DNA of 64,000 nucleotides, taken from Candidatus Aquidulcis sp. Its GTDB lineage: Bacteria; Chloroflexota; Anaerolineae; Anaerolineales; UBA4823. The notes beneath the pieces were generated by a model. The model was not told the DNA's origin. It saw only the letters and a program-made list of their open reading frames with translations, and did no database searches. The stretch is from assembly GCA_020723385.1 (NCBI GenBank), contig DYIZ01000002.1, positions 1 through 64,000 of the forward strand, read 5' to 3'. Below are positions 26,904 to 61,172 of the stretch, one piece after another (within the stretch, counting starts at the first letter, position 1; each line of letters begins with the position of its first letter). The translations under genes and the position numbers were made by a program.

Positions 26904-26908
26904 ACCAC

Positions 26909-29124: not shown

Positions 29125-29219
29125 GTCAGTAATCAGTGATCAGTTATCAGTTATCAGTTATCAGTTATCAGTTATCAGTTATCAGTTATCAGTGATCAGT
29201 CACTGATAACTGATAACTA
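29125..29219. repeat. Tandem heptamer array, atcagtt, with inverted end
   Basis: About ten consecutive copies of atcagtt/atcagtg are followed by a short complementary arm (cactgataactgataact). Words are the same as at 22648-22733. It encodes the C-terminal tail SYQLSVTDH and stop of the HAD gene 29189-29824. Confidence 0.92.
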
Positions 29220-30773: not shown

Positions 30774-30823
30774 CGGTGTATATCTTGTCGGTTGCGCGAG
30801 GGGCGTGGCCAGGAAGGATTTCC

Positions 30824-44780: not shown

Positions 44781-45788
44781 TCAAATCGCTTTCTGGTAAA
44801 TCGTAAACTGCTTGACCGTGCGATAGCCCATGCTTTCGTAGAGTTTCGTCGCGCCGGAGATGTTTTGGGCATCCACACCCAGCGCGGCGTGATCCATGCC
44901 TCGCTCTTTGAGCGCCTGCAAGCTGAGAGCGATCAGCGCCTTCGCCAGGCCGCGCTTGCGCCACGGGCGGCGCACGGAAATATTCTCGGTGTAGCCGCGC
45001 TTACGGTTGTACTCTTCATTTTCGGCTTTGTTGATAAAGCTCTGCACCATCCCGGCCACCTGATCCCCTTCCCAGGCGACGCGCCACAGACTGGGGTCGA
45101 AATCGGGGCCTTCGAGCATCTTTTGGAACTCCTCTTCCGGTTCCTCGATGTAGCCCCAATGATCGCGAAATGCCTCATTGGAGGCATCCCAGATCGCGCG
45201 GTAATGCTCCGGCAGCACGGGGCGCACCTCCAGCCCATCGGGCAGCGGCAGGTCGGGGATGTTTTCCAGATCGGGACGCACCATGCTCAGGGCGTAACGA
45301 ACAATCTGGTAACCGGCGCGCTGCATCAAGGCATGGCGGGCTTTTTCGGTCTCAGAAACTTCTTCGTTGGCAAGGTAGCGAGGCGCATCCGGCGATAACT
45401 CGCCGCTCCTCAATTGAGCCGCGGCGATCTCGCCCAAACGGGTCTCGATAAAATCAAGCAGGTTGCGCCCAATGCCTTTGCCGCGCCATTGGGGCTTGAC
45501 GAACCCGAAGTGGAAGCCGAGCCAGTGGCCGTCGCCATCTATTTCCCACCAGCCGCGCGTGTAGCCGACTGTTTCGCCGTTGACTTCGGCGAACAGCATA
45601 TCGCGCTGCGGGTCGCAGTGATGCAGGTGAGCGTATGTACGGGCCACGTCAGCGGGCGTATCGGCGCGTTCGAGCGCATCTGTCTCGTTGCAGGCCATGA
45701 TGATTTTCCAGATTTCGAGATAATCGGTCTCGCCCTGAAAGCTGCGGAAGCGCAGGCCGGGCAGAGGGGTAGGGAGAGTTGTAGTCAT
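44781..45788 (-). CDS. Tandem-GNAT acetyltransferase (MshD-like layout)
   Basis: 335 residues; GAGGA before the ATG. Two GNAT domains: the first has VKPQWRGKGIGRNLLDFI (about 110-127), the second VRRPWRKRGLAKALIALSLQ (about 275), both with the acetyl-CoA R/QxxGxG/A loop. The layout is that of mycothiol synthase, but no other mycothiol genes are present, so the substrate is open. It resembles the 49883-50851 protein closely (both have P.LPLP.GLE.RP.LPEH) and is probably a paralogue. Confidence 0.82.
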   Translation of the reverse strand: MTTTLPTPLPGLRFRSFQGETDYLEIWKIIMACNETDALERADTPADVARTYAHLHHCDPQRDMLFAEVNGETVGYTRGWWEIDGDGHWLGFHFGFVKPQWRGKGIGRNLLDFIETRLGEIAAAQLRSGELSPDAPRYLANEEVSETEKARHALMQRAGYQIVRYALSMVRPDLENIPDLPLPDGLEVRPVLPEHYRAIWDASNEAFRDHWGYIEEPEEEFQKMLEGPDFDPSLWRVAWEGDQVAGMVQSFINKAENEEYNRKRGYTENISVRRPWRKRGLAKALIALSLQALKERGMDHAALGVDAQNISGATKLYESMGYRTVKQFTIYQKAI

Positions 45789-45837
45789 AGAGTCCTCGTC
45801 TTATGGATTTCGGTTGGCGCGCCAAACTGACGCTTTG

Positions 45838-45921
45838 GTTCACACAAAGGATACAAAGGGTTCCACGAAGGACACAAAATATAAAAGCGCCCTTCGTGAT
45901 CCCCTTTGCGACCTTTGTGTT
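45838..45921. repeat. Palindromic word array, cacaaagg / cctttgtg, second locus
   Basis: Left-arm words (cacacaaagg, tacaaagg, ccacgaagg, acacaaa) face the right arm (cgcccttcgtgatccccttt, gcgacctttgtg). Same words as 4123-4194. It is the only long gap within the acetyltransferase array (45789-45934). Confidence 0.88.
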
Positions 45922-45934
45922 TAAAGGATTAACA

Positions 45935-46444
45935 TCAAACCGACTCGAATGCTTTGGGGTAGATCACATTTCCAGTCACGCCGGCCAGCGCGCCGGGGAC
46001 AAGCTCCAGCGCCATCCAGGCCTCGCCGCAATCCCCAAAGGGGCACTTCAGCCCCTGGGCGAGACCGGCTGAAAAGCCGAAACGCGGGTAATAATGGATG
46101 TGACCGAGCACGATCACAATGGCGTGCCCCTGCTCCCGGCACGCATCCAGCCCGGCGCGGACGAGCGCCGAGCCGATGCCGCGCTTTTGGAAATCAGGGT
46201 GTACCGCCATCGGGGCCAGCGACATCGCCGGGAGGCTGCCCCCTTCGGTTTCAATCGTGATCGGGCTGAGAAGGATGTGCCCCACCACGCGGCCATCTTC
46301 ATCGGCCACCAGCGAGATCGCGCCGGGAGAGCGGCGAATCGCATCTACAAGCTGAGGCTCAGCATCGCTCCCATCGAAAGCTAGGCGGTTGATTTCGTAT
46401 ACGCGGGCGTAATCCGCGGGGATTTCATTTCGTAGTGTCAGCAT
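45935..46444 (-). CDS. GNAT acetyltransferase (YhbS-like)
   Basis: 169 residues. The acetyl-CoA loop is in APMAVHPDFQKRGIGSALVR (about 85-104), and GHIHYYPRFGFSAGLAQGLK is typical of the YhbS-type single-domain GNATs. The ATG lies inside the end of the upstream MFS gene (20-base overlap in another frame), suggesting coupled translation. Confidence 0.88.
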   Translation of the reverse strand: MLTLRNEIPADYARVYEINRLAFDGSDAEPQLVDAIRRSPGAISLVADEDGRVVGHILLSPITIETEGGSLPAMSLAPMAVHPDFQKRGIGSALVRAGLDACREQGHAIVIVLGHIHYYPRFGFSAGLAQGLKCPFGDCGEAWMALELVPGALAGVTGNVIYPKAFESV

Positions 46445-47765
46445 TGATTTCTTCTCCGTTGTCCACTTTCTTCTCGATTTTGAACTTCAGCCAGGCCGGG
46501 ATGACGGCGATCAGCGAAACCCAGGCGGTGATGGCGAACGGGAACCACGGGCCGATCTTGTCCCACAGGAATGCGCCGATCATCGGGGCCGGAAGGGATA
46601 CCAAACCCAGGGAAGTGTTGAACAGCCCGAAGGCTGTCCCGCGTACCTTCTTCGGCACCGCTTTGCTGATCAACGACTGGTAAGCGGGCATCATCAGCCC
46701 TACCCCCGTGCCGGCGATGGCCCAGGCCAGGCCAAACAACCAGACGTTGGAAATCGCCTGCCCCAGCCATTTCATCTCATGCTCCATTGCCCAGGCTGCG
46801 CCGGACAGCCAGATGCTGTTGGCGTTGATGAACATCTGCAATGCGACAAAGATCAGCACGAAACCAGAGACGATCCCCACCCGCTCACCTTTCTTATCGG
46901 CCAGCCAGCCGCCGGGGATGACGGTCAACATGGTGAACAACCCGAAAACGCTGTTGAGCAGGCCGATCTGACCCAACGTCAGATGGGCGATGTCTTCCTG
47001 GTAGATGGGCATGAAGTTGAACGACAACGCAAACGAGATATCGCGCACCCCGTCGGTGATGAGGATCCAGGTCACCACGCCGCCGGCGAAGAGCAGCCCA
47101 AACATCGTGCCCAGGTTATCGAGCAGCCCGCGCACCGACAGCTTTTTGGATGCGCCTTCTTCCTCGGTTTGAGATGCCTGGCGGGCCATGGCCACGCGCA
47201 TCAGAGTCGCCACCCCATAGAACGCGGCAGCCACGAGCAGCATCACCCTGAAGCCAAATTTCTCGGCCAAAACGCCGCCCAGCACCGGCCCGGCCACGCT
47301 GACGATCTGGAACAACGCCTGGCTGATGCCGAAGACGCGCGCCCGGTTGTGATCGTCGGAGTGTTCGGCGATGAAGGCGTCGAAGCTGGCCCCCACCAGC
47401 GCTCCGCTGACCGAGCCGAAGGCCATCGTCACCAGCACCCATTCCCAGGATGGGGCCAGTATCAAGGCCACATATCCGCACAGCCCGGCCACGCTGCCGA
47501 AGGCAATCGCCCGCAGGCGGCCCAGCGTATCGGACACCCACCCCCCGAGGATTTGCAGCGACAGCGGGATGATTTGCGACAGCGTGAAGAACAGTCCGAT
47601 CTCGGTCACGTTCGCCCCCAGGCGTTCCAGGTAAAGCGGCATCAGCCCGCCATACATGTTCCCGCCGATGTTGGCGAGGATCATCGCCAGCATGAAGAGC
47701 AGCAACAGAGGCGTGAGCAGGGGAGCTTTCTTGGGTGGAACCGCTGATTGATGAACTGTGCTCAT
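46425..47765 (-). CDS. MFS transporter (12 helices)
   Basis: 446 residues with twelve predicted helices and a central loop rich in charged residues (ARQASQTEEEGASKKL). Helix 2-3 motif GWVSDTLGRLRA is MFS motif A. Similar to the MFS protein of 51682-52926 (both begin LLAMILANI-like and have GLFFTLSQIIPLSLQILGGW or the equivalent), so a paralogue. Likely a drug or metabolite exporter embedded in the acetyltransferase array. Confidence 0.9.
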   Translation of the reverse strand: MSTVHQSAVPPKKAPLLTPLLLLFMLAMILANIGGNMYGGLMPLYLERLGANVTEIGLFFTLSQIIPLSLQILGGWVSDTLGRLRAIAFGSVAGLCGYVALILAPSWEWVLVTMAFGSVSGALVGASFDAFIAEHSDDHNRARVFGISQALFQIVSVAGPVLGGVLAEKFGFRVMLLVAAAFYGVATLMRVAMARQASQTEEEGASKKLSVRGLLDNLGTMFGLLFAGGVVTWILITDGVRDISFALSFNFMPIYQEDIAHLTLGQIGLLNSVFGLFTMLTVIPGGWLADKKGERVGIVSGFVLIFVALQMFINANSIWLSGAAWAMEHEMKWLGQAISNVWLFGLAWAIAGTGVGLMMPAYQSLISKAVPKKVRGTAFGLFNTSLGLVSLPAPMIGAFLWDKIGPWFPFAITAWVSLIAVIPAWLKFKIEKKVDNGEEINADTTK

Positions 47766-47777
47766 TGAATTACCTTG

Positions 47778-48416
47778 CTACCTTTTGTGTTCCTGGATAT
47801 GGGCGTGAATCCGTTCATTGGCAGTCCGAAAACTTGTCAGGCTTTCTTTCCAGGGTGTATCACTTCCAAAAGTCAACCCATCCAGAAAGGCAATCACATC
47901 TTCGAGCTTGCCTTCGATCAGATTCACACCTACCGGGCGGGTAGGGATGTCGGGCAATCCTCGATACGAATAATGGAATTCGTGGATCAATCGGTCAATG
48001 GCAAACATCCTGGCCGATGGAGATGCAGCTTGCCCGTAAGTTTGGATGAACGCCCGAAAAACATCCACTGCACCGCCAGGGTTGAGTTGCTGGCGTTTGA
48101 AGCTGAGGTGATATTCGCCCCAGGTAATCTGCCAGCCGCAAACGGGGCAGGTGAGCAGCACATCGCGGGGATCTCCTTTGCGGCAAGGCCGCTCGATAAA
48201 CGTGACGATGCCTTGCCGGTCGCAGCGAGCGCAGTGGACACAGCCATGCTGGGCATCGTACACTTTCAGGATGTCGCTGCAACGCTGGAGCAGGATAGAG
48301 CCTACTTCGTCGAGCAGTTCTTCGTCCAACAGGCCCTGGGCGTCGGACTCGTACAAGCGGCGCAGCTTCCACTTGGGAACACGCCGCCCCCATTCGATAA
48401 CGTCTCGACCGGTCAT
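47778..48416 (-). CDS. Uncharacterised zinc-ribbon protein
   Basis: 212 residues, no family recognised. Two Cys pairs suggest zinc: CVHCARCDRQG (about 58-68) and CPVCGWQITWGEYH (about 90-103). The C-terminal half is helical (ARMFAIDRLIHEFHYSYRG) and contains several His residues. ATG overlaps the upstream GNAT stop (ATGA); the MFS gene follows 12 bases later. Co-expression with the GNAT array is clear from spacing, but the role is not. Confidence 0.75.
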   Translation of the reverse strand: MTGRDVIEWGRRVPKWKLRRLYESDAQGLLDEELLDEVGSILLQRCSDILKVYDAQHGCVHCARCDRQGIVTFIERPCRKGDPRDVLLTCPVCGWQITWGEYHLSFKRQQLNPGGAVDVFRAFIQTYGQAASPSARMFAIDRLIHEFHYSYRGLPDIPTRPVGVNLIEGKLEDVIAFLDGLTFGSDTPWKESLTSFRTANERIHAHIQEHKR

Positions 48417-48916
48417 GGCGCAGCTTTTTGGGAGTTATCGAACCACTGCACGGGGCCTTTCCAGCGGGCGTCGTCCAGAAAGGTTTCATGGTACTCGCCG
48501 TGCGTGTATCTGTCAATCACCCGCCGCCAGAAGTGGTGCGAGGGCGGGTTGCCATGCTCTTCCTGCACCTCCCACTTGCCGGGGAAGCGGTCGAAAATGG
48601 CGCAGGCTGCCCACCCGCCCACCCCCATACGGCGATATTTGCGCATGACGAAAAATTCGCTGATGGATTGCTCGTTGCCAGGCAGGAAAGCGTGCCGGCT
48701 GACCAGTACGAACCCGGCCAGTTTGCCATCCACCCGGATGAAGAATGGATAGCGTCCGGCTTCCGTCCAGTAGTTGTCGAGATAGGGGTAGCCGAACACG
48801 CCATGCGCATTGATCTCCGCGCCGTCGTATTCCGAGAAGTCGTAGAGGTACAACTCCATCAACCGTTGGAGCACGATTTTGTCATCGTAGGAGACGGGTT
48901 GAATTTCGATGTTCAT
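48413..48916 (-). CDS. GNAT acetyltransferase
   Basis: 167 residues. Single GNAT domain with SEFFVMRKYRRMGVGGWAAC containing the RxxGxG loop (about 96-103); the N-terminal helices contain LMELYLYDFSEYDG, typical of a widespread predicted-acetyltransferase group. The stop overlaps the zinc-ribbon gene start (ATGA) and the start lies 3 bases after the upstream GNAT gene. Confidence 0.85.
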   Translation of the reverse strand: MNIEIQPVSYDDKIVLQRLMELYLYDFSEYDGAEINAHGVFGYPYLDNYWTEAGRYPFFIRVDGKLAGFVLVSRHAFLPGNEQSISEFFVMRKYRRMGVGGWAACAIFDRFPGKWEVQEEHGNPPSHHFWRRVIDRYTHGEYHETFLDDARWKGPVQWFDNSQKAAP

Positions 48917-48919
48917 GGC

Positions 48920-49867
48920 TTATTCGAGCACCTTTTCCATCAAGAAAGTTCCCGGCATCTGGACATAACCCAGCTTGCGGTCAATGGCGATCATCGGCAG
49001 GTTTTTCATGTTGTGATGGGTGTGGACTTTTTGAACCTTCAATACCTCCCGTGCATAGCGCAGCGCCGTCACCTTCACCGCCTGTCCCAACTTGCGCCCG
49101 CGGTAGCGCACATCCACCCCAGTGAACAGGTTATAGGCGTAATCGTTGCCCTCCAGCCGGGTGATGGCGCTCATCGCAGCCCAGTCGCCGGTGGCGGTAT
49201 CAATGACTACCATCTGCCCGCCAGGTTTATACCAAGCCGTCTGGCACACGCTTTTCTGGAAATCCTCGAACGAGACCCAGGGATGTTCACCCTCCGCGCC
49301 GGGCGTGGTGATACATACCGAGTCGTTCAGGAAATACAGCTTGCGCTGGGCATCTTCCGTATTCCCCAAAGCCTCCATCGAGGTGAACTGGAAACCCTCG
49401 CTCTCCAGGCTGGCAATGATCGCGTCATAAGGCCGGTCGTCAAAAGCGTCCAGGTCCAATGCCATCGCGAAATGATGCCTCAGCTCGGTGAAACCGCGCC
49501 GTTCAGCAAAAGCCCGGCATTCCGGGCTGGTGTCCCAAACGCTGACGCGCAGCTTTTTCGCCTGCGCGGCGGTGGCAGCCTGGGTCATAGCCTCGTACAA
49601 CTGGCGGCCTATCCCTTGCCCGCGTTGCTCTGGCCTGACGAACAGATAAACGGACATCCGCTCTGGCTCCACTTTGTTGCGCATGGCCCAATAGAATCCC
49701 CCCTGCTCATCTTCAGCCACTTTCGCGATGATGCGCTGGCGGTATTTCTCGTATTCTTCCTTGAGACCAGGTTCAGTGGTTGGCTCATCCTCCAGGCTGG
49801 AGAACCAGGCGGCGAGTTCGCCAAAATCTCGTTCCGGCTCGGCCGGGCGTAAATGGATTGTTTTCAT
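48920..49867 (-). CDS. Tandem-GNAT acetyltransferase
   Basis: 315 residues. N-terminal GNAT domain with LFVRPEQRGQGIGRQLYEAM (about 75-94) and a second domain with GVDVRYRGRKLGQAVKVTAL (about 250). The second loop has RxxxLG, a weaker match, as often seen in tandem GNATs where one domain is inactive. Part of the contiguous minus-strand array. Confidence 0.83.
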   Translation of the reverse strand: MKTIHLRPAEPERDFGELAAWFSSLEDEPTTEPGLKEEYEKYRQRIIAKVAEDEQGGFYWAMRNKVEPERMSVYLFVRPEQRGQGIGRQLYEAMTQAATAAQAKKLRVSVWDTSPECRAFAERRGFTELRHHFAMALDLDAFDDRPYDAIIASLESEGFQFTSMEALGNTEDAQRKLYFLNDSVCITTPGAEGEHPWVSFEDFQKSVCQTAWYKPGGQMVVIDTATGDWAAMSAITRLEGNDYAYNLFTGVDVRYRGRKLGQAVKVTALRYAREVLKVQKVHTHHNMKNLPMIAIDRKLGYVQMPGTFLMEKVLE

Positions 49868-49882
49868 AGGTTTACCTTGATT

Positions 49883-50851
49883 TCAATCTGGCATCAGTTT
49901 TTCATACACAGTGTCGCGTTTGACTTCCTGGAATCCGCAGCTAACGTAAAGCTTATAGTTATTCAACTTTTCACCGTTGCATACCATCGCCGATTCCGTC
50001 ATGCCAACCGCGCGCTGGGCTTTCAGGCTGCGGGCGATCAGGGCTTTGGCCACCCCGCGCCGCTGCCAGGCCGGCGTGGTGCTGATCCCTTCGGTGTACC
50101 CGCGCCGGATGCCAAGCTGTTTGTTTTCGGCGTGGTTGATATAAGTCATCACGCTGCCCGCCACCTTCCCGGCGCTGACTTCCCAGGCCACCTGCCACAG
50201 CTCAGGCTGGAAGTTCGGATCGTTCTTGAAATCGTCCGGCATCTCGCCGGTGGGCGGGGGGCCGCCTTCCGGCACGTAGGCTTCCTCCATCGCGTGCCAG
50301 ATGGCAGGGAAGTGTTCGGGCAGCGCCGGGCGCAGCTCAAGCCCCTCGGGCAGCGGCGTGTCGGGGATGTCATCCAGGCTGGGGCGGACCATCAGCGCCC
50401 AGCTTTCTTTGATGCCGTAGCCGGCCCGCCGCATCAGCGCGTGCAGCCCGATCTGGTACTGCGTGGCATTGATATGCCAGAAATTGGGGGCCGTGGTGGG
50501 ATGTTCTCCGGCTACTGCCTGGGCGCACGTCTCCAGCCAGGCCAGCAAAGCCCAGCCGATGCCTTTGCGCCGCCACCCTGGGAGGATATAGCCGGTCAGC
50601 CCATAAGTGCGGCGGGAGTCCTCATCCCACCAGCGCACGCGCCCAAAGCCGACCGCCTGCCCATCTACCTCGGCGATGATCAGGTCGCGGAACAGGTCAA
50701 AGCGGGGCGTTGCCCTCAGGTTTTTCGCCAGGTCGGCTGCGGAGACGGTCGCCGGTAGATTGTCTGCATTTTGGCTGGCGGTGAGGATGTCGGCGAGACG
50801 GGGGTAATCGTCGTCGCTGTGGAAAGGACGCAAAGTCAGTTTGTCAGGCAT
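49883..50851 (-). CDS. Tandem-GNAT acetyltransferase (MshD-like layout)
   Basis: 322 residues; AGGAG before the ATG. First domain loop LPGWRRKGIGWALLAWLE, second TPAWQRRGVAKALIARSLKA. Paralogue of 44781-45788, sharing the interdomain motif (D.PDTPLPEGLELRPALPEH). Substrate unknown. Confidence 0.85.
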   Translation of the reverse strand: MPDKLTLRPFHSDDDYPRLADILTASQNADNLPATVSAADLAKNLRATPRFDLFRDLIIAEVDGQAVGFGRVRWWDEDSRRTYGLTGYILPGWRRKGIGWALLAWLETCAQAVAGEHPTTAPNFWHINATQYQIGLHALMRRAGYGIKESWALMVRPSLDDIPDTPLPEGLELRPALPEHFPAIWHAMEEAYVPEGGPPPTGEMPDDFKNDPNFQPELWQVAWEVSAGKVAGSVMTYINHAENKQLGIRRGYTEGISTTPAWQRRGVAKALIARSLKAQRAVGMTESAMVCNGEKLNNYKLYVSCGFQEVKRDTVYEKLMPD

Positions 50852-50860
50852 TATTGGCTC

Positions 50861-51658
50861 CTATTCTTCATCTGGTTCCCAAATGTACCAATCCAGGCCG
50901 CCCAGCTCCTCGAAACCCAATTTTTGGCAAATCGGGGCGGAGGAGGTGCGCACGGCCTGGATGACGGCGGCGCGTGCGCCATCCCGATAGGCATCGGCCA
51001 GGCGGCGGGCGACCAGGCCGGTGTACACCCCCTGGCCGCGCGCCCGTTCGAGCGTGGCGGCGCAGTACAGCTCGACGATGGGCTGGTTGGGGAAATTGAT
51101 CAAGCTGGCATACGCCACCGGGTCGGGATCGTCGGGCAGATAGGCCAGGTAGGCGCGCCGCCGCAGCGGGCTGGGACCGAGCGCCAGCGCTTCGACGGTG
51201 GCGCGTGCGCCCTCGGGGGTGAAGCCGATCGCCTCGGAGAGCAGGGGAACGGCAATCTCCAGGTCGTCCACGCTGACCTCGCGGATCGTGACGGCGGGGT
51301 TCACCGGGATGGGGACATCCAGCCGGGTATTTGCCATCCCCGCCAGTTCGAGGACTTTTTCCATCCCCAGGCGGGATAACCGCTCCCCCAGATCAACCGG
51401 CGTGGTCAGCGGCCCCACGATCCAGCCAAATCCCTGCTTTCGATTGGTATACCGATCGTACACATGCCGGATAACGCCATCGGCGTTTTCGGTCGTCAGG
51501 CGCGCCACCCCCGTCAGGCTGACGAAAGCATCCGAACCGTTGATGCTGCGCCCCTGAATGCCGGGAATGTCGAGCCATTCGACACGCCCAGGCAGCTTGG
51601 GCAGCAAGAACATGCCGCTGTCAACGGCTTCGAGCAGATCGTTTTGTGAGATGGTCAT
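50861..51658 (-). CDS. GNAT acetyltransferase
   Basis: 265 residues; GAGGA before the ATG. The N-terminal 120 residues form a divergent domain; the C-terminal GNAT domain (about 130-255) has LYCAATLERARGQGVYTGLV with the acetyl-CoA loop RARGQG and AVRTSSAPICQKLGFEELG. It lies 24 bases before the MFS gene end in the minus-strand array. Confidence 0.83.
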   Translation of the reverse strand: MTISQNDLLEAVDSGMFLLPKLPGRVEWLDIPGIQGRSINGSDAFVSLTGVARLTTENADGVIRHVYDRYTNRKQGFGWIVGPLTTPVDLGERLSRLGMEKVLELAGMANTRLDVPIPVNPAVTIREVSVDDLEIAVPLLSEAIGFTPEGARATVEALALGPSPLRRRAYLAYLPDDPDPVAYASLINFPNQPIVELYCAATLERARGQGVYTGLVARRLADAYRDGARAAVIQAVRTSSAPICQKLGFEELGGLDWYIWEPDEE

Positions 51659-51681
51659 CGTTTTCCTCGTTTCCTACTTTC

Positions 51682-52926
51682 CTAAGCCAATATCTCTTTA
51701 GCCTCACTTTTCCCCGGCTGGCGGAATTTGAGCCAGGCGATGGGAACCGAGATTGCGCAGGCGGCCACTGTCACCCAGAAAGGCGCCTGGGGGTGGATGC
51801 GCTCCCACAACTGCGCGCCAATCCACGGCATGGGCAGTGACAGGATACCTAGCGAGGTGCCAAACAGGCCATAGGCCAGGCCGCGCCGGTCTTCGGGCAC
51901 AACTTTGGAGATCAGGGAGTCGTAGGCGGGCATCAGGCTGCCAACCCCAAACCCGAAGACGGCCATGGCGGCCGCGAAGACCAGAAAGCTTTCGGCCCGC
52001 AGCAGCAATAACATGCCCAGGGCTTCGATCAAGAAACCGCCAGCGATCACGGCGCGCTCGTTGAGTCTGTCGCTCAACCAGCCTGCCAGGAACGAAGCCA
52101 GGATGACGGCTACGCCCCAGGCGGAATTCACCAACCCGATTTGCTGGACGTTCAGCTTCCCGATGTCGGACAGATAGATGGGGTACAACTGGCCGATCAG
52201 GTTGAATGCCGTATCCCCGATAGCATCGGTGACCCAAATCCAGGTCAGGACACCGCCCGCAAAAAGCAGGGTAAAAATGGCTGCAACCTGGGTTTTGAGT
52301 CCGGCCAGCGACGGCTTTTCGGCGTCTTTTTTGGGCGCAAAACGTTCGGCCGTTCCCATCCAAACCCGCATCGCCGTGGCCAGCGCGTAAAAGACGAAAG
52401 CCACCAGCATCATTGGCCGGAAGCCGAACCGGAACGCCAGAAACCCTGCCAGCGCCGGGCCGATGACGGTGACGGTCATGTAGATGCTCTTCGTCAGGCC
52501 GAAAACCCGCCCGCGCTCTGCCTCGGCAGACTGCTCGGCGATGTAGGCGCTGAAACTCGGCCCCACGACCGAGTTGGAGACATACTCGATGCACAACCCC
52601 AGCATGACCCATTCCCAGGAGGGCGACACGAAGAAGAGCAGGTACCCGAAGACGGAGATGGCGCTGCCCAGAGCGATGACGCGCAGCCGCCCAATGGTGT
52701 CGGACAGCCAGCCACCGAGGATTTGCAAGGCCATCGGGATGAGCGATGCCACAGTGAAAACCAGCCCCACCTGCCCGACGCTGGCTCCCAGGTCAACCAG
52801 GTAGAGCGACAGCATACTGTAAGCCATCTGCCCGGCGATGTTCGCCAGGATCATTGCCAGCAGGAACCAGCGCAGGTTGGCGTTGAGGATGGGGGTTTTC
52901 TTCGGTTTCGAAAGGTTATCGTTCAC
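51682..52926 (-). CDS. MFS transporter
   Basis: 414 residues if started at the GTG 52926, which overlaps the upstream stop as GTGA; a GTG at 52941 is an alternative. Twelve predicted helices; GWLSDTIGRLRVI is MFS motif A; the central loop (ERFAPKKDAEKPSLAG) separates the halves. Paralogue of the MFS protein 46425-47765. Translationally coupled to the GNAT gene upstream. Confidence 0.88.
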   Translation of the reverse strand: MNDNLSKPKKTPILNANLRWFLLAMILANIAGQMAYSMLSLYLVDLGASVGQVGLVFTVASLIPMALQILGGWLSDTIGRLRVIALGSAISVFGYLLFFVSPSWEWVMLGLCIEYVSNSVVGPSFSAYIAEQSAEAERGRVFGLTKSIYMTVTVIGPALAGFLAFRFGFRPMMLVAFVFYALATAMRVWMGTAERFAPKKDAEKPSLAGLKTQVAAIFTLLFAGGVLTWIWVTDAIGDTAFNLIGQLYPIYLSDIGKLNVQQIGLVNSAWGVAVILASFLAGWLSDRLNERAVIAGGFLIEALGMLLLLRAESFLVFAAAMAVFGFGVGSLMPAYDSLISKVVPEDRRGLAYGLFGTSLGILSLPMPWIGAQLWERIHPQAPFWVTVAACAISVPIAWLKFRQPGKSEAKEILA

Positions 52927-53861
52927 CACGCCCGCACCCACGGTTCGCTCAGCTCGTGATCATTGCCCATCACCGATGTATAGAGGGCATTGGCAGCCGG
53001 ACTGTAGCCGCCCACAAAGGCCAGAGTCGCGCCCAAGCGCTGCAAGCGGCGCAACCCGTCGAACATCAGCGCTTTGCCCAGGCCGCGCCGCTGGTGGGCG
53101 GGAACGGTCGCCACTGGCTCGAAGTAGGCGCTGCGGGTGACATCGTCGAACCAGATGGTGCAGAAAGCGGCGATCGCGCCATCCGGGGCGACGGCGACGA
53201 GATCGAGATCGCGGCGGTACAGCGGGGCGGTCTGGATGTTGCGATACCAGGTGGGATCGTCGCGATTCTCGACAGCGATTTTGATATCCCCGTCGTGGAA
53301 ACCCAGCCCGGAGGCGTAGCAGCGCTCGAGGAGTTCCAGCCCGTCCCCCAGGGGGCGGATGGTGTACCCCGGCGGGAGAGTCGCTTCCGGGATGGGGGCA
53401 TCCAATCGGCGGCGGTGCTGGTGTTCGGCATCGCCTTGTTTCGTGTAACCGCGCCGGGCAAGAATCTCCTGGAAACCGACATCCTTCCCAGGCGACCATA
53501 CACACAAATTATGAGTCCCATCGGCCTCTGAAGCGAACAGGCGTTCCTCGGCCACTACAACCATTTCTTCTTGAAGCTGGTTGGTCTGATAGGCTGGATG
53601 AATATTCAGGTGCGCTTCGCCTCGCCCGCCATCGGGCATGAGGAAGGCGGCCAGGTCACCATCCGCGGTCTCCCATAGAAAGGCTACCTCGTTCAGGGTG
53701 ACGTTGGCGCAGTTGAGGCAGGTGTGCCAGCGGGCGTAGTCGAGGCGGGCGACGTGCCAGCTCGTTTCGCGGCAATCATTAGCGACGAAGACGCGGCGCA
53801 GGAATTCGCGCATTCGCCAGAAATCGTCTTCGGCTTGGTAGGGACGTGAAATGAGTTTCAT
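52923..53861 (-). CDS. Tandem-GNAT acetyltransferase, first gene of the array
   Basis: 312 residues; GAGGT before the ATG. The C-terminal GNAT domain has EPVATVPAHQRRGLGKALMF (about 245-265) and YSPAANALYTSVMG; the N-terminal domain is divergent but GNAT-like (HLNIHPAYQTNQLQEEMV). It is the promoter-proximal gene of the minus-strand array. Divergent from the NUDIX gene, with only 28 bases between the two ATGs. Confidence 0.83.
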   Translation of the reverse strand: MKLISRPYQAEDDFWRMREFLRRVFVANDCRETSWHVARLDYARWHTCLNCANVTLNEVAFLWETADGDLAAFLMPDGGRGEAHLNIHPAYQTNQLQEEMVVVAEERLFASEADGTHNLCVWSPGKDVGFQEILARRGYTKQGDAEHQHRRRLDAPIPEATLPPGYTIRPLGDGLELLERCYASGLGFHDGDIKIAVENRDDPTWYRNIQTAPLYRRDLDLVAVAPDGAIAAFCTIWFDDVTRSAYFEPVATVPAHQRRGLGKALMFDGLRRLQRLGATLAFVGGYSPAANALYTSVMGNDHELSEPWVRAW

Positions 53862-53889: not shown

Positions 53890-54351
53890 ATGTTACTCGA
53901 TCTTCTTTTTCAACTTTGGCGGCGATTGAGGGGAAGTTGGCAATGGCGGCTGTTGTGGCTGGTGAACGGCAAATTCATGGTCAGCGTGGCAGGCGTGGTT
54001 TTAGACGATGCGAGTCGGGTGCTGCTGCAACGTCACCGCCACTGGGTTCCAGATGTGTGGGGGCTTCCCGGCGGGATCGTACACGGCGGCGAGACGCTCG
54101 AAGCGGCTTTCGCCCGTGAAGTGTGGGAGGAAACCGGGCTGCGGGTGGATGATGTGCAGTTGGTTCAAATATTCAGCGGCTATAAGCTGCGGCTGGAGGC
54201 TTTCTTCAAGGCCAGGCTGGCCGGAGAAGCAGCGATCCGGCTGCAAGCCAGCGAAGTGTTGGAAGCGTGCTTCTTTCCTGTAGATGAGCTGCCTGCCAAT
54301 GTACTGCCGCAGCAGCGGGAAGTGATTCGGGCGGCGGTGAAGAAAGTTTGA
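53890..54351 (+). CDS. NUDIX hydrolase
   Basis: 153 residues. The Nudix box is GGIVHGGETLEAAFAREVWE followed by ETGL (GX5EX7REUXEEXGU, complete). An amphipathic N-terminal helix (LLFQLWRRLRGSWQWRLLWL) precedes it. Hydrolyses a nucleoside diphosphate linked to another group; substrate not predictable. TATGAT sits only 6 bases before the ATG, so the transcript may be leaderless. Confidence 0.9.
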   Translation: MLLDLLFQLWRRLRGSWQWRLLWLVNGKFMVSVAGVVLDDASRVLLQRHRHWVPDVWGLPGGIVHGGETLEAAFAREVWEETGLRVDDVQLVQIFSGYKLRLEAFFKARLAGEAAIRLQASEVLEACFFPVDELPANVLPQQREVIRAAVKKV

Positions 54352-54387
54352 ATGTGCTCCTCCAAACCAGTTGAATCTCCTAATTTA

Positions 54388-54396
54388 TGCTAAAAT
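54388..54396 (+). promoter_or_regulatory. Extended -10 of the DUF4143 ATPase gene
   Basis: TGCTAAAAT matches the extended -10 pattern and lies 34 bases before the ATG at 54431; TTGAAT at 54371 is too close (14-base spacer) to be a good -35. Confidence 0.45.
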
Positions 54397-54430
54397 AGGT
54401 GAGTCGGATCACTTTTTTATGGAGAATTAC

Positions 54431-55552
54431 ATGATTCAATACTCGCGCGCACTTCAGCCTGTCATCGAACAATCTTTGTTCAAGGGGAAGGTGATTGTGA
54501 TTTATGGGGCCAGGCAGGTGGGTAAAACCACGCTGATCCGCACGATCCAGGATCAATACCCTGATCGGTCCCTATACCTGAATTGTGATGAACCGGATAT
54601 TCGCAGCGCCTTGAGCGAGAGGACCTCGACCGAGTTGCGCCTGTTATTAGGCAGCAAAACCCTGATTTTGATTGACGAGGCGCAACGTGTAAAAAACATT
54701 GGCTTGACGTTGAAGCTTCTGGTGGATACTTTTCCTCAAATCCAGGTGATTGCTACCGGATCGTCATCGCTCGATTTGTCGAATGACATTTCTGAACCCC
54801 TGACTGGTCGCAAGGTGGAATTTTATCTCTACCCTCTTTCGGTGGGTGAGCTACTGACGCAACGCACCTCACTCGAAATGCAGCGATCCCTGGATTATCA
54901 CTTGCGCTTTGGCATGTATCCGGGCGTCCTTGCCAGCGATCAGCCTGCTGAGGACCTGTTCGAAATTACAAAAAGCTATTTGTACAAAGACTTGCTGGAA
55001 TTCCAAACGGTGAAAAATCCGGATATACTGCGCAAATTATTGCAGGCGTTGGCGCTGCAAATTGGCAGTGAAGTTTCTCTCAACGAGTTGGGTACTCTCC
55101 TGGGGTTGGATAAGGTTACAGTGGCTCGTTATCTGGCGCTTCTCGAACAGGGGTATGTCATCTTCCATCTGTCCCCATTCAGCCGCAATTTACGCAAAGA
55201 GCTGGGTAAGCAGCGCAAAGTATACTTCTACGATCTGGGCGTGAGGAATGCCCTTATCAACAATTTCAACCCGTTGGAATTACGTCAGGATGTGGGCGGG
55301 TTGTGGGAAAATTTCTTTATCAGTGAGCGGATCAAATTTGTTCACAATCAGCGCAAGCACCCCAACCTATATTTCTGGCGCACGTATGACGGCAAGGAGA
55401 TTGATTATTTGGAAGAAGATGGGGGGCAATTGACCGGTTTCGAGTGCAAATGGGGCAAGGAAACCTGGCGAGCGCCCGCCATTTTCACGGAAACTTATCC
55501 CAACAGTTCCGTGTCTTTGGTGAACCAGTCGAACGTGTTAGAGTATCTATGA
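54431..55552 (+). CDS. AAA ATPase with DUF4143 domain
   Basis: 373 residues from the ATG at 54431, chosen because GGAG lies 6 bases upstream. Walker A YGARQVGKTTLIR (about 27-39), Walker B TLILIDEAQR (about 75), arginine-finger region SSLDLSNDISEPLTGR, then the DUF4143 C-terminal domain (LGTLLGLDKVTVARYLALLE; FYDLGVRNALI; EIDYLEEDGGQLTGFECKW, nuclease-like fold). Such solitary ATPases are common in bacteria and archaea and of unknown role. Lower GC and different codon use than neighbours suggest acquisition. Confidence 0.9.
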   Translation: MIQYSRALQPVIEQSLFKGKVIVIYGARQVGKTTLIRTIQDQYPDRSLYLNCDEPDIRSALSERTSTELRLLLGSKTLILIDEAQRVKNIGLTLKLLVDTFPQIQVIATGSSSLDLSNDISEPLTGRKVEFYLYPLSVGELLTQRTSLEMQRSLDYHLRFGMYPGVLASDQPAEDLFEITKSYLYKDLLEFQTVKNPDILRKLLQALALQIGSEVSLNELGTLLGLDKVTVARYLALLEQGYVIFHLSPFSRNLRKELGKQRKVYFYDLGVRNALINNFNPLELRQDVGGLWENFFISERIKFVHNQRKHPNLYFWRTYDGKEIDYLEEDGGQLTGFECKWGKETWRAPAIFTETYPNSSVSLVNQSNVLEYL

Positions 55553-56422
55553 GTTTATTCGAGTTACCACCCCAATCCATTCGCTCGCCTCGTAATACGA
55601 TTGCCCGATGAGATCGCCCCACAGGCTTTCGATGGCGAAGCCGCCCGCTTCCAGCTCGGCGGTGATTGACTCGGGGGTGTAATCCTGAAACCAGTTGCGA
55701 TAGACTGAAATCTTGCCATCGGCCTCGATGACGATAGCCTGATCGAGCCAGATGGATTGTTCCGGGTAGTCGAATCCCTCTTCGAGCGCCAGGTGCGGAC
55801 CGGGCTTCCAGAAGCCGCTTTCGAGAGCGTACCAGCCGTTGCGGCTGCCGTGTTTTCTGCGGCATTCGCGGGTGGAGACGTCCAACACAAAACGCCCGCC
55901 GGGCTTGAGGGCGCGGCGTACATTGGCGAGCAGGGTAGCGCGCTGGTGAGGGTTGAGCGGGCAATAGTCGCCGAAGATCAGCAGAGCCGCATCGTATTGG
56001 GCCTCGTCGGTTAGCTCCAGGTAGTTTTGGTAGCGGTAGGCGACAGCGAGGCTGTGATCGCGGGCATATCCGGCAGCATAGTCAATCGAGCGGCGGGAGT
56101 AGTCCACCCCGGTGACGGTGAACCCCTTGCGGGCCAGGCGGGAGGTGTACAATCCCGGGCCGCAGCCCAGGTCGAGGATGGCAGCCCCGGCAGGGAGGCC
56201 CAACGTCGAGAGTATCCAATCCACCGAGCGGTCAATCGTCTCGGGGCGGCGGCTGGCCAGGTCTGTAGTGGGATCGAGGTGGGTAGCCAGCATCTGCGCT
56301 GAGATGTGGGGATCATTCCAAAACAGGGCCTCGCCGGGGGTGAAAGGGGCGGGTTTTTCCTGTAAAGCCAGCAAAGCGGGAATATCGAGGGTTTGAGTAT
56401 TGAGAATCAGGTTATGTGTCAT
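55547..56422 (-). CDS. SAM-dependent methyltransferase
   Basis: 291 residues. Motif I AAILDLGCGPGLYTSRLARK (about 79-98), motif II TGVDYSRRSIDYA, post-motif GGRFVLDVSTRE. The C-terminal part (YRNWFQDYTPESITAELEAG) forms the usual substrate lid. Small-molecule methyltransferase; substrate unknown. The ATG overlaps the APH-like kinase stop (ATGA). Its 3' end overlaps the convergent ATPase gene by 6 bases. Confidence 0.88.
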   Translation of the reverse strand: MTHNLILNTQTLDIPALLALQEKPAPFTPGEALFWNDPHISAQMLATHLDPTTDLASRRPETIDRSVDWILSTLGLPAGAAILDLGCGPGLYTSRLARKGFTVTGVDYSRRSIDYAAGYARDHSLAVAYRYQNYLELTDEAQYDAALLIFGDYCPLNPHQRATLLANVRRALKPGGRFVLDVSTRECRRKHGSRNGWYALESGFWKPGPHLALEEGFDYPEQSIWLDQAIVIEADGKISVYRNWFQDYTPESITAELEAGGFAIESLWGDLIGQSYYEASEWIGVVTRINS

Positions 56423-57450
56423 CTTTTGGCAATCCTTGCGGTGATTTGTGCAACCCTGTCCTCCAGGCGCGGCAGGTCGGGCAGGCTGTATTCGATGATG
56501 CCGCCCAAATCTTTGGCGTCTTGTGCGTCATCGGTGTTGTGGTACAAAATGCGCGCCACCCAATCAGTCAGGTCTTCGAGCGTGCGGTGATAGAAGTAGA
56601 ATCCCAAAACGGCGCTATCCAGGCGGGCTGGCCCAAACTCGCGCTCGTACGCCGGTAAAAAAATCTCCCAGAAATCTTCCTCTCCGGCGAAGAAGAACAG
56701 GTCACGCTCCTGGGGGGCGATGTGTGCGCCCTCCCAATCCAGGATGTAGAGATTGTCCTGATCGTCGAGCAGCAGGTTGCCGCCGTGCAGGTCAGCGTGG
56801 CAAAGCACTTGAGCTTTATTGGCAGCCATAGCCTGCACCTGGAATTCTTTGAGGCGGCGCAGCAAGCTCAGGACTTTGTCTTTCCGAGGCAGGAGCAAAT
56901 CCCGCAGGGCGTGTTTTCCCTGGCGGTCGGCGGGGGTAAGATCCTGAAGGATGTCGAAACTGCGCAGCAGAGTGGGTTCGAAAGCCAGGGCATACTGCTC
57001 ACGGAGCGGATTTGGCAGCGAGAGCAGGGGGAGGCTGCGGTGGAGGATGCCCACCAGCCCGGCAACCCGGGGCAAGAGGTCGCGGGTGATCTTGCCAAAA
57101 CCTATCGTCTGGCCTGAAATGTAGTTGGACAGCACCCAGTGAAAGCCATCCAAATTGAGCATCAGCCGCCCGTCGCTTGCCGGGATAGGATAAACAATGT
57201 GGGGGAGAATCCCCTGGGCGTGCAGGGCATGGGTCACAGGCAGGTAAAAGTCAGGGTCGTGGGTAAACGACGCGGTCCAGTCCACCCCCTGGAGCTTGAG
57301 GAAGTAGCGCTCACATCCGGTGCAGGTGACGCGGTAACAATAGGCCATCCAGCCGGTGGGTAAAGGTTCGACCAGTTCTACGGATAATCCATACTCACGC
57401 TGGAGGGTTTCAGCCAGAAAGGTTTTTTCGAGCGGGGATTCGGTTGTCAT
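56419..57450 (-). CDS. APH-family phosphotransferase
   Basis: 343 residues from the ATG at 57450 (a TTG 18 bases upstream is possible). Brenner motif LCHADLHGGNLLLDD with catalytic Asp, then the metal-binding ILDWEGA. N-lobe Lys in RYFLKLQG. This is the aminoglycoside phosphotransferase/homoserine-kinase-like fold; closest in layout to spectinomycin- or choline-type kinases, substrate not assignable. Coupled (ATGA) with the methyltransferase gene. Confidence 0.88.
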   Translation of the reverse strand: MTTESPLEKTFLAETLQREYGLSVELVEPLPTGWMAYCYRVTCTGCERYFLKLQGVDWTASFTHDPDFYLPVTHALHAQGILPHIVYPIPASDGRLMLNLDGFHWVLSNYISGQTIGFGKITRDLLPRVAGLVGILHRSLPLLSLPNPLREQYALAFEPTLLRSFDILQDLTPADRQGKHALRDLLLPRKDKVLSLLRRLKEFQVQAMAANKAQVLCHADLHGGNLLLDDQDNLYILDWEGAHIAPQERDLFFFAGEEDFWEIFLPAYEREFGPARLDSAVLGFYFYHRTLEDLTDWVARILYHNTDDAQDAKDLGGIIEYSLPDLPRLEDRVAQITARIAKR

Positions 57451-57526
57451 GGCTGCTTTCTTGTCCAATGTTGATCGTAGATTTCGGCGACATGCGGCTT
57501 GACATCGTGCCTATTCGGATTTCGGC

Positions 57527-58804
57527 TCATCTTCCCTTCTCGGCGGGTGCAAGCTCGACCGGGGCAGAACTTCTTTGGGAGAGGGTTCCAATTCGATAGG
57601 CCAACCCCGCCCCGGCCGCATACAGAATGATACTCAAAACGAATGGGAAACCTTTGTTGATCGCAGACAGCGTCCCCGCAATCCAGCCGAACGGCGAGGA
57701 GAGCAGAATGATGCCCATGTAAAGGATTGCCAGGATGCGGGCGCGCTCCCTGGCGTCAATGGTCAGCACGGTCAGCTTGTCGAGCAGCGGACCGACCGTG
57801 GCGAAGCTGCAAGCTTCTAAAAAGACGCTCAAGATCAAAAAGAAATAGCTCTGACTGGGCGCAGTGACCAGCAGCACCTGGCTGGCAACGAAACCCAGGA
57901 ATCCGACCGTCAGAGGCAGTTTGAAGTGCAGTTTGTTGATCAGCGGTATCGCCGCGAAAAAGAAGATCAGCATAATGCTGGATTTGACGAATGGGAAGAT
58001 TGCCAGGTATTGATTGGGGACGTGCAATTTCTGGGTAACGATGATAGCCCAGAAACTGCCGTTGATCATCCCCGTGATCTGGATCACGAGCAAGATGGCC
58101 GCGGTGTACAGCGTTTGGGGTGTGCGGAGCAGAGCCTGAAAAACGCCTTTGTACTCGCCCAATACGCTCAAAACGCTCTGGCGGCGCGTCTCTTCCATGC
58201 GAACCATGCCCTGCTTCGTCTCCGTCGTCAGCCAATAGGTGACAAAGGCCTTCAAAGCGAACATAAACGCGGCGAAGAAGTACAGCCCGCGCATGGTGGG
58301 CACCAGGCTGAAAGCGCCGATCAGCACCCCGGCCAGCGGGGCCGCAAACCCCACCAATTGATTGGAAATATAGATCCAGGTATAGATATCCACCAGTTGG
58401 TCTGGCTCGGCGTCTTCAACCAGCAGGCAAGACCACGAGTTAAAGGTTATGCGCCAGATGGTGTTGAACAAACCGGCCGCCAGGAAATACCAGAAGTTCT
58501 GCGCAACCGCAGAGATGAGCGCCGGGACACTCCAGGCCAGGATGTCGAAAATCAGCGTGGTGCGCCGCCTCCCCAGCTTATCGGTCACCACGCCGCTCAA
58601 CAGCATCATGACGATCTGCACACTCCCGGTGATGCTGACGATCAGCCCGATCTGCTGATCCGACAGCCCGAGGGCGATCATGTAAACTGAGATGTACGGA
58701 GCATACAGGTTATAGGGAATGCCCCACAAAGGCTCCGTGTAAACGCAGCCGCGCGGGTTGCCGCGCAGGCTGATGAGGGTGGCGATGAGGGCATGTCGTT
58801 TCAA
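57527..58804 (-). CDS. MFS transporter
   Basis: 425 residues from a TTG at 58804, supported by AGGAG 9 bases upstream. About twelve hydrophobic helices; GVVTDKLGRRRTTL is MFS motif A; central loop EETRRQSVLSVLGEYKGVFQ. Different in sequence from the paralogous pair 46425 and 51682. Substrate unknown. It lies upstream of the APH-like kinase on the same strand, about 75 bases away. Confidence 0.88.
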   Translation of the reverse strand: MKRHALIATLISLRGNPRGCVYTEPLWGIPYNLYAPYISVYMIALGLSDQQIGLIVSITGSVQIVMMLLSGVVTDKLGRRRTTLIFDILAWSVPALISAVAQNFWYFLAAGLFNTIWRITFNSWSCLLVEDAEPDQLVDIYTWIYISNQLVGFAAPLAGVLIGAFSLVPTMRGLYFFAAFMFALKAFVTYWLTTETKQGMVRMEETRRQSVLSVLGEYKGVFQALLRTPQTLYTAAILLVIQITGMINGSFWAIIVTQKLHVPNQYLAIFPFVKSSIMLIFFFAAIPLINKLHFKLPLTVGFLGFVASQVLLVTAPSQSYFFLILSVFLEACSFATVGPLLDKLTVLTIDARERARILAILYMGIILLSSPFGWIAGTLSAINKGFPFVLSIILYAAGAGLAYRIGTLSQRSSAPVELAPAEKGR

Positions 58805-58920: not shown

Positions 58921-60207
58921 TTACCCCAATGTGCGAAATTTCTCCCGTGTATCGAGATTCGCATCATAGCGGCATTCTTCAGCCATCCACGCTGGCAGCC
59001 GGTCGAGTTCAAACAGCCGGTCAACTGCAAAGCTGCGGCAAAAGGCGCATGGATCATACTCATAAAGTGCCAGCATCAACCGTTCTTCGCTCTCTGGGTT
59101 GGGATGAGCTTCGCAAAAATCTAATACACCAAGACCTAGCCGATGATAGTCACCCTTTTTTAGAGATTTTGCCAAAAGGCTTTCGAGAATCAGGTGATCG
59201 CCTTCCTGGAAATTGTTGATCAGCAAATCAGGTACCCAGCCTACTTCACCAGATGGCTTTGCGACCAACTCTAATGCGAAGGCTCGCACTTTGGGGTGGA
59301 TGATGTTTTCTAAAGCCCGCATCGCCAGGGCTGCATTTTTAATCTTGGAATTTCGCGCTAACCCAATAAGCGGTTCGATATCCAACGGGAAGCATCTACG
59401 CCTGAAGATCCGCACATAAGCCCGCAATCGCTTCGGGTTAGTTTCGAGCAAGAGATCTGCCGCTGCTTGAGCTAATTCTGTTTCCGAGGCTTGTTTACCC
59501 CACAATACTAATGACATACCTGGCGGATAGCCATTGTGATTGATGATCAATTGCTTGAGTTGTGCATAGCTGATCGTGGCATGATCCAGGTCGGCCTCAG
59601 CGCACTTTTCCTGCTTTGCTCGAACTTCAGCGACGCAATCCATGTAGGCTTTAACTTGCACGTTCTCGGCGGATGCCCGCTTGACTGCCCGACGGGTCTT
59701 AGCCTTTCCACATCGTTCTTCCACCTCCCGATACAGGTATCCATAAACCCAATCATTTTCAGTATTCAGCAGAATTCCCCCGATCTCGTCAGCCGCGAAG
59801 AGAAAACCCGCGATGCCGTCCAACTGAATTATGGCCGTTGCATCCGTACAATCGCCCTTCGAGCAGTTGGATACAAATTTATCATAGATTGCCTGCCGCG
59901 CCTCGACATCACCCTGTTGTGCGAACAGCCGCGCCAGATCGAACAATTGGATAGCGTCGGCCTCGTCCCCAGAATCAGCCAGTGCGGCCAGGATTTGCTC
60001 ACGGTAATAATCCTTTTCGTCGGTCAATTCGATGATGTCGAACATATACTCGGCGCGATTTCCCTCGATTTGGGCGTCGTAAGCCCAATTGTGCAGGCAG
60101 GCGTCGAGAATGGCGTCGCGGTGGGGAGCCGCCGGATGCTCCTGCAAATACAGGATGGCCCGCCCCAAACCAAGCTTCAACGACCGGTCGAATTCTGAAT
60201 CATCCAC
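58921..60207 (-). CDS. Uncharacterised helical-repeat protein
   Basis: 428 residues from a GTG at 60207. No family recognised. Alpha-helical throughout, with HEAT/TPR-like paired helices (LARNSKIKNAALAMRALENI; EGDHLILESLLAKSLKKGDY). No signal peptide or membrane helix; several Cys residues (CSKGDCTD, CAFCRS) are scattered. Possibly a scaffold protein. Base composition is lower in GC than the surroundings. Preceded by the repeat element 60234-60310. Confidence 0.7.
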   Translation of the reverse strand: MDDSEFDRSLKLGLGRAILYLQEHPAAPHRDAILDACLHNWAYDAQIEGNRAEYMFDIIELTDEKDYYREQILAALADSGDEADAIQLFDLARLFAQQGDVEARQAIYDKFVSNCSKGDCTDATAIIQLDGIAGFLFAADEIGGILLNTENDWVYGYLYREVEERCGKAKTRRAVKRASAENVQVKAYMDCVAEVRAKQEKCAEADLDHATISYAQLKQLIINHNGYPPGMSLVLWGKQASETELAQAAADLLLETNPKRLRAYVRIFRRRCFPLDIEPLIGLARNSKIKNAALAMRALENIIHPKVRAFALELVAKPSGEVGWVPDLLINNFQEGDHLILESLLAKSLKKGDYHRLGLGVLDFCEAHPNPESEERLMLALYEYDPCAFCRSFAVDRLFELDRLPAWMAEECRYDANLDTREKFRTLG

Positions 60208-60424: not shown

Positions 60425-60477
60425 GTGGATGTGAGTTTTGGCGCAACTCAATGTATGGTTACAGATTCGGAGCAGCG

Positions 60478-60792
60478 ATGACACTCTCAGAAATACTCCA
60501 AAAATGTAAAACTGCCCTGGCAGACAATTACCAATCCAATTTTACAGGGTTAATCCTGTATGGGTCTTTGGCCCGCAACCAGGGTACTTCTGCCAGCGAT
60601 ATTGATTTGCTCGTCTTGCTCGACCAGCCTTTCGATTATTTTCGGGAGCTGCGCACGATTATCGAACTGCTCTATCCCATTCAATTGGAGTCAGAGCAAT
60701 TGATTTCCGCAAAGCCTGCTCTTTCCAAAGATTTCGAGCGTGGGGCGATGTCGCTTTATCGCAATGCTCTGCGTGAGGGGGTATCGGTATGA
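60478..60792 (+). CDS. MNT-type nucleotidyltransferase (antitoxin-like)
   Basis: 104 residues from the ATG at 60478, preceded by GGAG; an ATG at 60451 would add nine residues. ILYGSLARNQGTSASDIDLL contains the nucleotidyltransferase GSxxR...SDxD motif with both catalytic Asp residues. In MntA/HepT systems this subunit AMPylates and inactivates the HEPN toxin. The stop overlaps the HEPN gene start (ATGA). Confidence 0.88.
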   Translation: MTLSEILQKCKTALADNYQSNFTGLILYGSLARNQGTSASDIDLLVLLDQPFDYFRELRTIIELLYPIQLESEQLISAKPALSKDFERGAMSLYRNALREGVSV

Positions 60793-61172
60793 CAACCTAT
60801 GCGGTTGAAATCTCAGCCAATATGGAACGGGCAGAGCAATCCATCCAGGCGGCGCGTCAACTGGCAGCGGGCGGCTACGATGATTTTGCGGCTTCGCGGG
60901 CTTATTACGCAGTTTTCTATGCAGCCAGCGCGTTGTTGCTGCATGAAGGCCTGGAATTGAGCAAGCACAGCGCGGTGATAGCCTCAATCCATCAAAGATT
61001 CGTAAAAACCAGCAAGCTGGATAAAGAGCAGGGGAGGATGTTGAACTGGCTTTTTGAATTACGCAGCGTTGGCGATTATGGGGGAGCAGCGCACGTCTCT
61101 GCGCAGGAAGCGGGGCGAGCGATTGATGCTGCGGAAGAATTTCTTAAGACCGTTCGGTCATTGTTGATATAG
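60789..61172 (+). CDS. HEPN-domain protein (UPF0332-like)
   Basis: 127 residues, helical, with the typical SRAYYAVFYAASALLLHEGL. This subgroup lacks the RX4-6H RNase motif of HepT toxins: near the C-terminus there is only RSVGDYGGAAH (Arg and His nine residues apart). It forms a coupled pair with the MNT gene. Probably a toxin-antitoxin-like or nucleotide-signalling module. Confidence 0.85.
   Translation: MTTYAVEISANMERAEQSIQAARQLAAGGYDDFAASRAYYAVFYAASALLLHEGLELSKHSAVIASIHQRFVKTSKLDKEQGRMLNWLFELRSVGDYGGAAHVSAQEAGRAIDAAEEFLKTVRSLLI

Follow-up and report, generated by a model that had tools for sequence, protein, structure and literature searches.

The ten genes between positions 44781 and 53861 are probably the 3' end of a chromosomal locus for intrinsic resistance, that is, for xenobiotic defence, one that seems directed mainly at translation inhibitors. 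The window, the whole stretch of 64,000 nucleotides analysed here, covers the opening 64 kb of a contig of 100 kb, in a genome of 6.4 Mb. An earlier note had treated the ten genes as a unit of 9 kb. Instead, the run extends past 53861, on the same contig and beyond the window, to ~90085. The true size of the unit is 45-66 kb, as against the 9 kb of the array.

What does the array itself contain? An ORF check places seven GNATs, two MFS carriers and one CxxC protein, all on the minus strand, where the earlier note had put them. All seven GNATs reach or exceed the Pfam cut-off for a GNAT domain (G2 only just, its weak score being equal to the cut-off) and both carriers match MFS_1. Four GNATs had been described as tandem; Pfam finds two GNAT stretches in G3, G4 and G7, but no fourth such protein. 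In G1 it detects a C-terminal GNAT domain only, yet an alignment of this protein with G10, which is of similar size, spans nearly all of it. The 'zinc-ribbon' protein has the paired cysteine motifs but is without a Pfam match. The tight packing from 53861 to 45935 is borne out by intergenic gaps of -20 to +23 bases, and G7 is set apart from its array neighbour by 146 bases. Paralogy within the array is likewise real, at 40% identity for G3-G7 and 44% for MFSA-MFSB. These 9 kb hold nine of the 65 GNAT-domain matches of the genome, where 0.09 would be expected.

Table 1. Positions in the window, strands and basis of assignment for the genes of the array, its continuation and the outlying backbone.
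Feature	Position	Strand	Basis
Eis-like GNAT (Acetyltransf_9), outlying backbone	24261..25604	-	relatives near G7 in 6-7 loci
MFS carrier, outlying backbone	25683..26966	-	orthologue (481 bits) in compact G022 locus
Amidase (AtzE/GatA-like), outlying backbone	26977..28350	-	adjoins HAD, on its far side, at G7 in relatives
HAD hydrolase a, outlying backbone	28504..29112	-	HAD genes follow G7 in relatives
HAD hydrolase b, outlying backbone	29189..29824	-	HAD genes follow G7 in relatives
Putative methyltransferase (Cons_hypoth95)	29907..30845	-	flanked by HAD and amidase in G003
G7: tandem GNAT, backbone anchor	44781..45788	-	two Pfam GNAT stretches, orthologues, AF2 model
G6: single GNAT (Acetyltransf_9)	45935..46444	-	Pfam
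MFSB: MFS efflux-type carrier, backbone	46425..47765	-	Pfam; orthologues adjoin G7 in relatives
CxxC ('zinc-ribbon') protein, lineage-specific	47778..48416	-	without Pfam match
G5: single GNAT	48413..48916	-	Pfam; relatives near G7 in 4-5 other loci
G4: tandem GNAT	48920..49867	-	Pfam
G3: tandem GNAT, deep paralogue of G7	49883..50851	-	Pfam, tree, identities
G2: weak GNAT	50861..51658	-	at Pfam cut-off
MFSA: MFS carrier, paralogue of MFSB	51682..52941	-	Pfam, tree
G1: GNAT of G8/G10/G11 type	52923..53861	-	Pfam, tree, identities
Interruption: NUDIX and AAA14/DUF4143 genes	53890..55552	+	
MT1: class I methyltransferase	55547..56422	-	Pfam scan; adjoins G7 in L072/L202
APH1: APH-type kinase	56419..57468	-	NCBIfam match and motifs
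MFSC: MFS carrier	57527..58804	-	Pfam scan
unkA: protein within island	58921..60207	-	without Pfam match
Interruption: nucleotidyltransferase/HEPN pair (MNT-HEPN type)	60451..61172	+	
Second full-length EF-G	61218..63305	-	TIGR00484, over cut-off

The array forms the 3' end of a locus of ~45 kb that reaches ~90.1 kb on the contig. Between 44781 and 90085 lie 44 genes, 39 of them on the minus strand; by family assignment the stretch comprises about 40 genes predicted to be mostly of resistance-type families. Beyond 53861 the order is methyltransferase, APH, MFS, a protein of unknown type, second EF-G, APH, AadA-type enzyme and APH. There follow an ANT(4')-type/GNAT fusion, methyltransferase, GNAT, M55 peptidase, methyltransferase, MFS, APH and methyltransferase; then two ABC exporter subunits, DUF4037, MFS, GNAT and a CPT-type/GNAT fusion; and finally GNAT, VOC, ABC-F, a protein without a Pfam match and three GNATs, to 90085. 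The locus thus encodes four APH-type kinases and two nucleotidyltransferases, one AadA-type and one ANT(4')-type. From 44.8 to 90.1 kb we count 17 of the 65 GNAT matches of the genome (0.46 expected, a 37-fold excess) and four of its 25 APH matches (0.18 expected, ~23-fold).

Since many genes of one strand abut or overlap, co-transcription in long blocks is likely, to judge from spacing and strand. The run is interrupted by five short-to-medium genes of the opposite strand (NUDIX, AAA14/DUF4143, MNT, HEPN and one without assignment) and is therefore a series of blocks, not a single operon. Promoter and terminator scans gave no clear excess over shuffled sequence, Rfam yielded no regulatory RNAs, and no WhiB7-type regulator was seen at the locus.

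Is the grouping conserved? Full-length orthologues of G7 (41-63% identity) occur in 18 of 40 relatives, one further orthologue being split in two, and a profile of G7 finds it in 60 of 150 further genomes from the order. Among the named relatives, the closest are in MAGs of the Anaerolineales and other Anaerolineae (Chloroflexota). In one relative (G022) some 9 kb read ABC ATPase, G13-type, two G12-type, ABC-2 permease-type, G10, G7, HAD, amidase, MFS. In another (G003) the order is G13, G12, G12, permease-type, ABC-F, G10, MT3, MFSB, G7 and, past G7, HAD, HAD, methyltransferase, amidase. There is, then, a conserved Anaerolineae backbone of ABC-2 exporter, short and tandem GNATs, MFS, HADs and amidase, often with ABC-F, and in the present lineage it is enlarged by some 25-30 genes, most of resistance-type families.

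The genes of these compact loci keep their order in the present genome, but are strung out from 90 kb to 25.7 kb. On the strength of this shared order the HAD, amidase, MFS and Eis-like genes at 24.3-29.8 kb are members of the locus. Its two halves are split by a block of UvrA, TldD/PmbA, Ntn-type acyltransferase, nitroreductase and Fpg-type genes. The present run is without the ABC-2 exporter genes; genes of ABC-2 type come closest to it at 13.9-17.5 kb, where they lie on the plus strand.

Around G7 the island families number 134 genes in 1.06 Mb (80 named loci), or 126 per Mb, as against nine genes in 0.78 Mb of control DNA (39 stretches from relatives), or 11.5 per Mb; this ~11-fold higher density is from a count that excludes G7 and G3 and sets 80 mutually related loci against a control of modest size. 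The grouping of island families around G7 is non-random. As regards the array, conserved grouping holds in part: G7, the MFSB/MFSA family, G5 and the G1-type GNATs have a conserved partner set, whereas for G2, G4, G6 and the CxxC protein the 80 G7 loci yield no relative at 100 bits or above. The CxxC protein has a single relative in 151 genomes (45%, in G009). Nor is the cargo wholly conserved at the locus, since CPT-type genes in most other genomes sit away from it.

The latter genes, together with the lineage-specific part of the cargo, would suit a neutral origin, in which a permissive site collects unrelated genes and GNATs duplicate in tandem, with no shared function. We regard this as most unlikely, for the paralogues of the island are only 27-45% identical (same-type GNATs ~27-40%, the MFS pair 44%) and several have orthologues of their own in relatives. 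In trees G7, G8, G10, G11 and MFSB each cluster with genes of other genomes and not with one another, while G1 clusters with a GNAT of a second mixed island on another contig (C143) of the same genome. Low identity and separate orthologues mean that these are not recent duplicates; trees and identities rule out a recent tandem duplication, and the GNAT and MFS paralogues are old. The family mix is also strongly biased and gene order is conserved, neither of which fits neutral accumulation.

A second genus of the same family (G009) carries island genes on small contigs in similar blocks: APH2-EFG-KNT/GNAT, MT3-G9-CPT-ABCF (with CPT unfused), ABCa-ABCb-G12-G13 and G7-MT1. These blocks also argue against an artefact of assembly or binning. 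The second EF-G has its island orthologue there (77%). The KNT-GNAT fusion is found in two other genomes (77% and 69%) and the CPT-GNAT fusion only in the present one among those searched; the plasmid collection has no full-length match to either, and we know of no precedent for an ANT(4')-type/GNAT or a CPT-type/GNAT fusion. The anatomy of the locus, its conservation, its shared cargo and the age of its paralogues are matters of direct observation.

How specific are the individual assignments? The ABC-F protein (84691-86721 on the contig, beyond the window) passes the ribosomal-protection-like model NF000355 with 436 bits against a cut-off of 380, and the second EF-G passes TIGR00484 with 776 bits. 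A Tet(M)/Tet(O)-like identity for the latter was rejected (409 bits; the NF012153 cut-off is 775). It is a true EF-G paralogue, 47% identical to the housekeeping fusA, which lies beside rpsL on another contig (C230). The best NCBIfam match of APH1, to APH(9)-Ia at 80 bits, is below cut-off; its motifs HADLHGGN and LDWE are present. The CPT-type kinase fails NF033114 (95 against 250 bits) and passes the broader Pfam CPT family (165 against 22 bits). The ANT(4')-type enzyme fails NF033061 (53 against 350 bits) and carries the active-site-like motif ASYARGEDIAYSDLE. The APHs, both nucleotidyltransferases and most GNATs have intact catalytic motifs, and the P-loop of the CPT-type kinase is likewise intact. 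Because ABC-F and EF-G alone, among the locus proteins run, pass named NCBIfam models, we attach no individual drug names to the enzymes. GNAT, APH, HAD and MFS are broad families, and it is at family level that several drug-modification, target-protection and efflux families are encoded together in the locus.

This breadth admits a metabolic or repair role, which remains the strongest rival: the backbone would handle a normal metabolite of the cell (an amino sugar, say, or a polyamine, a peptide fragment or a thiol), with the look of resistance being due to broad families. The AF2 model of G7 (pLDDT 92) has as its best PDB match MAB_4324 (7q3a; TM 0.86, 28-29% identity) and next a Sphaerobacter GNAT (3tt2), with a glucosamine N-acetyltransferase and mycothiol synthase among the following matches. 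Several APHs resemble homoserine or fructosamine kinases, and there are compact loci that have backbone members but no APH or ANT genes. All of this would fit such a role. However, AadA-, ANT(4')- and CPT-type enzymes, ABC-F and a second EF-G are hard to place in one pathway. A mycothiol synthase (MshD) identity for the tandem GNATs was rejected on score, G7 reaching 49 bits, far below the TIGR03448 cut-off of 163. On balance a metabolic role seems improbable.

Might the genes instead guard their host from its own natural product, as an immunity module separated from its biosynthetic cluster? Producers typically use GNATs, APHs, ABC-F proteins and exporters for immunity, and one locus of the genome, on contig C199 and the only one of PKS/NRPS type found, has its only condensation domain and its strongest ketosynthase match, the latter in a long frame. 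Yet the earlier statement that no biosynthetic genes are visible holds for the contig: no core genes were found among ~65 scanned proteins. Elsewhere in Anaerolineae the backbone is met repeatedly with no biosynthetic partner in sight (its neighbours there are mostly unannotated), and the locus has too many enzyme types for unrelated drug classes to serve one product. Self-protection, one of the two purposes first proposed, is thus disfavoured and in our judgement very unlikely.

An integron or mobile resistance island was also considered and rejected. Pfam scans of the locus showed no recombinase, integrase or transposase families, no attC-like or other repeated elements were seen there, and the 40-99 kb part of the contig has no tRNA. 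The chromosomal neighbours are dnaK-dnaJ-prmA and uvrA.

The reading that we prefer, an intrinsic-resistance locus, retains from the earlier note the combination of modification and efflux, which was the right kind of reading for families of several mechanisms whose grouping is conserved for part of the array. Its 'related set of compounds' does not go far enough, since the locus has types of enzyme for several drug classes that are unrelated to one another. We infer drug substrates, co-expression and joint function from sequence. Incoming drugs would be inactivated by GNATs through acetylation (using AcCoA), by APHs and the CPT-type kinase through phosphorylation (ATP/GTP) and by the nucleotidyltransferases through nucleotidylation (NTP). 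The ABC-F protein and the second EF-G may keep ribosomes running under translation inhibitors, while the MFS, ABC-2 and ABC exporters would expel drug or modified drug.

Tentatively, and with a good deal of reserve, we suggest something more general for the Anaerolineales: a conserved chromosomal site that gathers resistance genes of many classes, fuses them (ANT-GNAT, CPT-GNAT) and expresses them in blocks, vertically inherited and non-mobile, a clustered counterpart of the dispersed WhiB7 regulon from which resistance genes might also originate. Were this so, the locus would be an ordered catalogue of candidate drug-modifying enzymes in a class with few cultured members, and it would show how a conserved gene group can grow into a resistance set. 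Its conserved gene order allows tests block by block. A literature search for clusters of GNATs or for resistance loci in Chloroflexota yielded nothing direct; one paper describes a sulfonamide-resistance gene from Chloroflexi, and a second counts Chloroflexi among the phyla with aminoglycoside-modifying enzymes.

As a rule, genes for intrinsic resistance lie dispersed or travel on mobile elements. The present locus resembles mobile multi-resistance islands and integrons in its dense run of diverse resistance-type genes. It differs from them in that its backbone is common to an order, in that no recombinase, transposase or attC-like repeats were seen, and in that the two fusions tested are without a full-length plasmid match. 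The bifunctional aminoglycoside enzyme AAC(6')-Ie/APH(2'') likewise joins two drug-modifying domains in one protein; the pairs here are ANT(4')-type with GNAT and CPT-type with GNAT.

The closest likeness in content is with the WhiB7 regulon of Mycobacterium abscessus, which has a like mix of the tandem GNAT MAB_4324c, other GNATs, APH, ABC-F, MFS and methyltransferases, and whose genes respond to ribosome-targeting drugs (PMC10727445). MAB_4324c and the Sphaerobacter GNAT share the fold of the predicted G7 model. MAB_4324c is induced by WhiB7, acetylates amikacin mildly in vitro and gives partial complementation of a whiB7 mutant that is sensitive to amikacin; its share in resistance is minor (PMC10727445). 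The regulon genes are dispersed and joined by one regulator (PMC10727445), whereas the present locus is contiguous, chromosomal and in a Chloroflexota host. By analogy, it may work as the M. abscessus regulon does, with the parts in one place.

What role might be played by the full-length second EF-G that lies within the resistance-type island? Its close orthologue was found, among the 151 genomes searched, only in a genome of another genus of the same family (G009). It is possibly a target-protection or drug-tolerant EF-G. Also inserted inside the island, on the strand opposite to that of the island genes, is an MNT-type nucleotidyltransferase–HEPN pair of toxin–antitoxin type.

In two island proteins beyond the window, GNAT is joined to another drug-modifying-type domain. 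A second mixed island, on contig C143 of the same genome, contains an ABC exporter pair, three APH-type kinases, four GNATs, M1-type peptidases and three PF00144 beta-lactamase-type proteins, one of them fused to WD40 repeats.

The outlying backbone genes have a candidate regulator upstream of them, a protein of guanylate cyclase–AAA16–TPR make-up. Elsewhere in the window, a single 1348-residue frame joins an N-terminal transglutaminase-like domain to UvrA; it has a long homologue (1050 bits) in another genome (G121, stretch L194).

Coordinates of the features, in the window or in other DNA stretches (L handles)
Feature	Location	Coordinates
Second EF-G	window	61218-63305
MNT–HEPN pair	window	60451-61172
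CPT-type kinase–GNAT fusion	L002	3220-4272
ANT(4')-type nucleotidyltransferase–GNAT fusion	L001	7012-8289
C143 island	L004; L005	8204-20000; 1-15437
Cyclase–AAA16–TPR protein	window	30824-34243
Long UvrA	window	34489-38535
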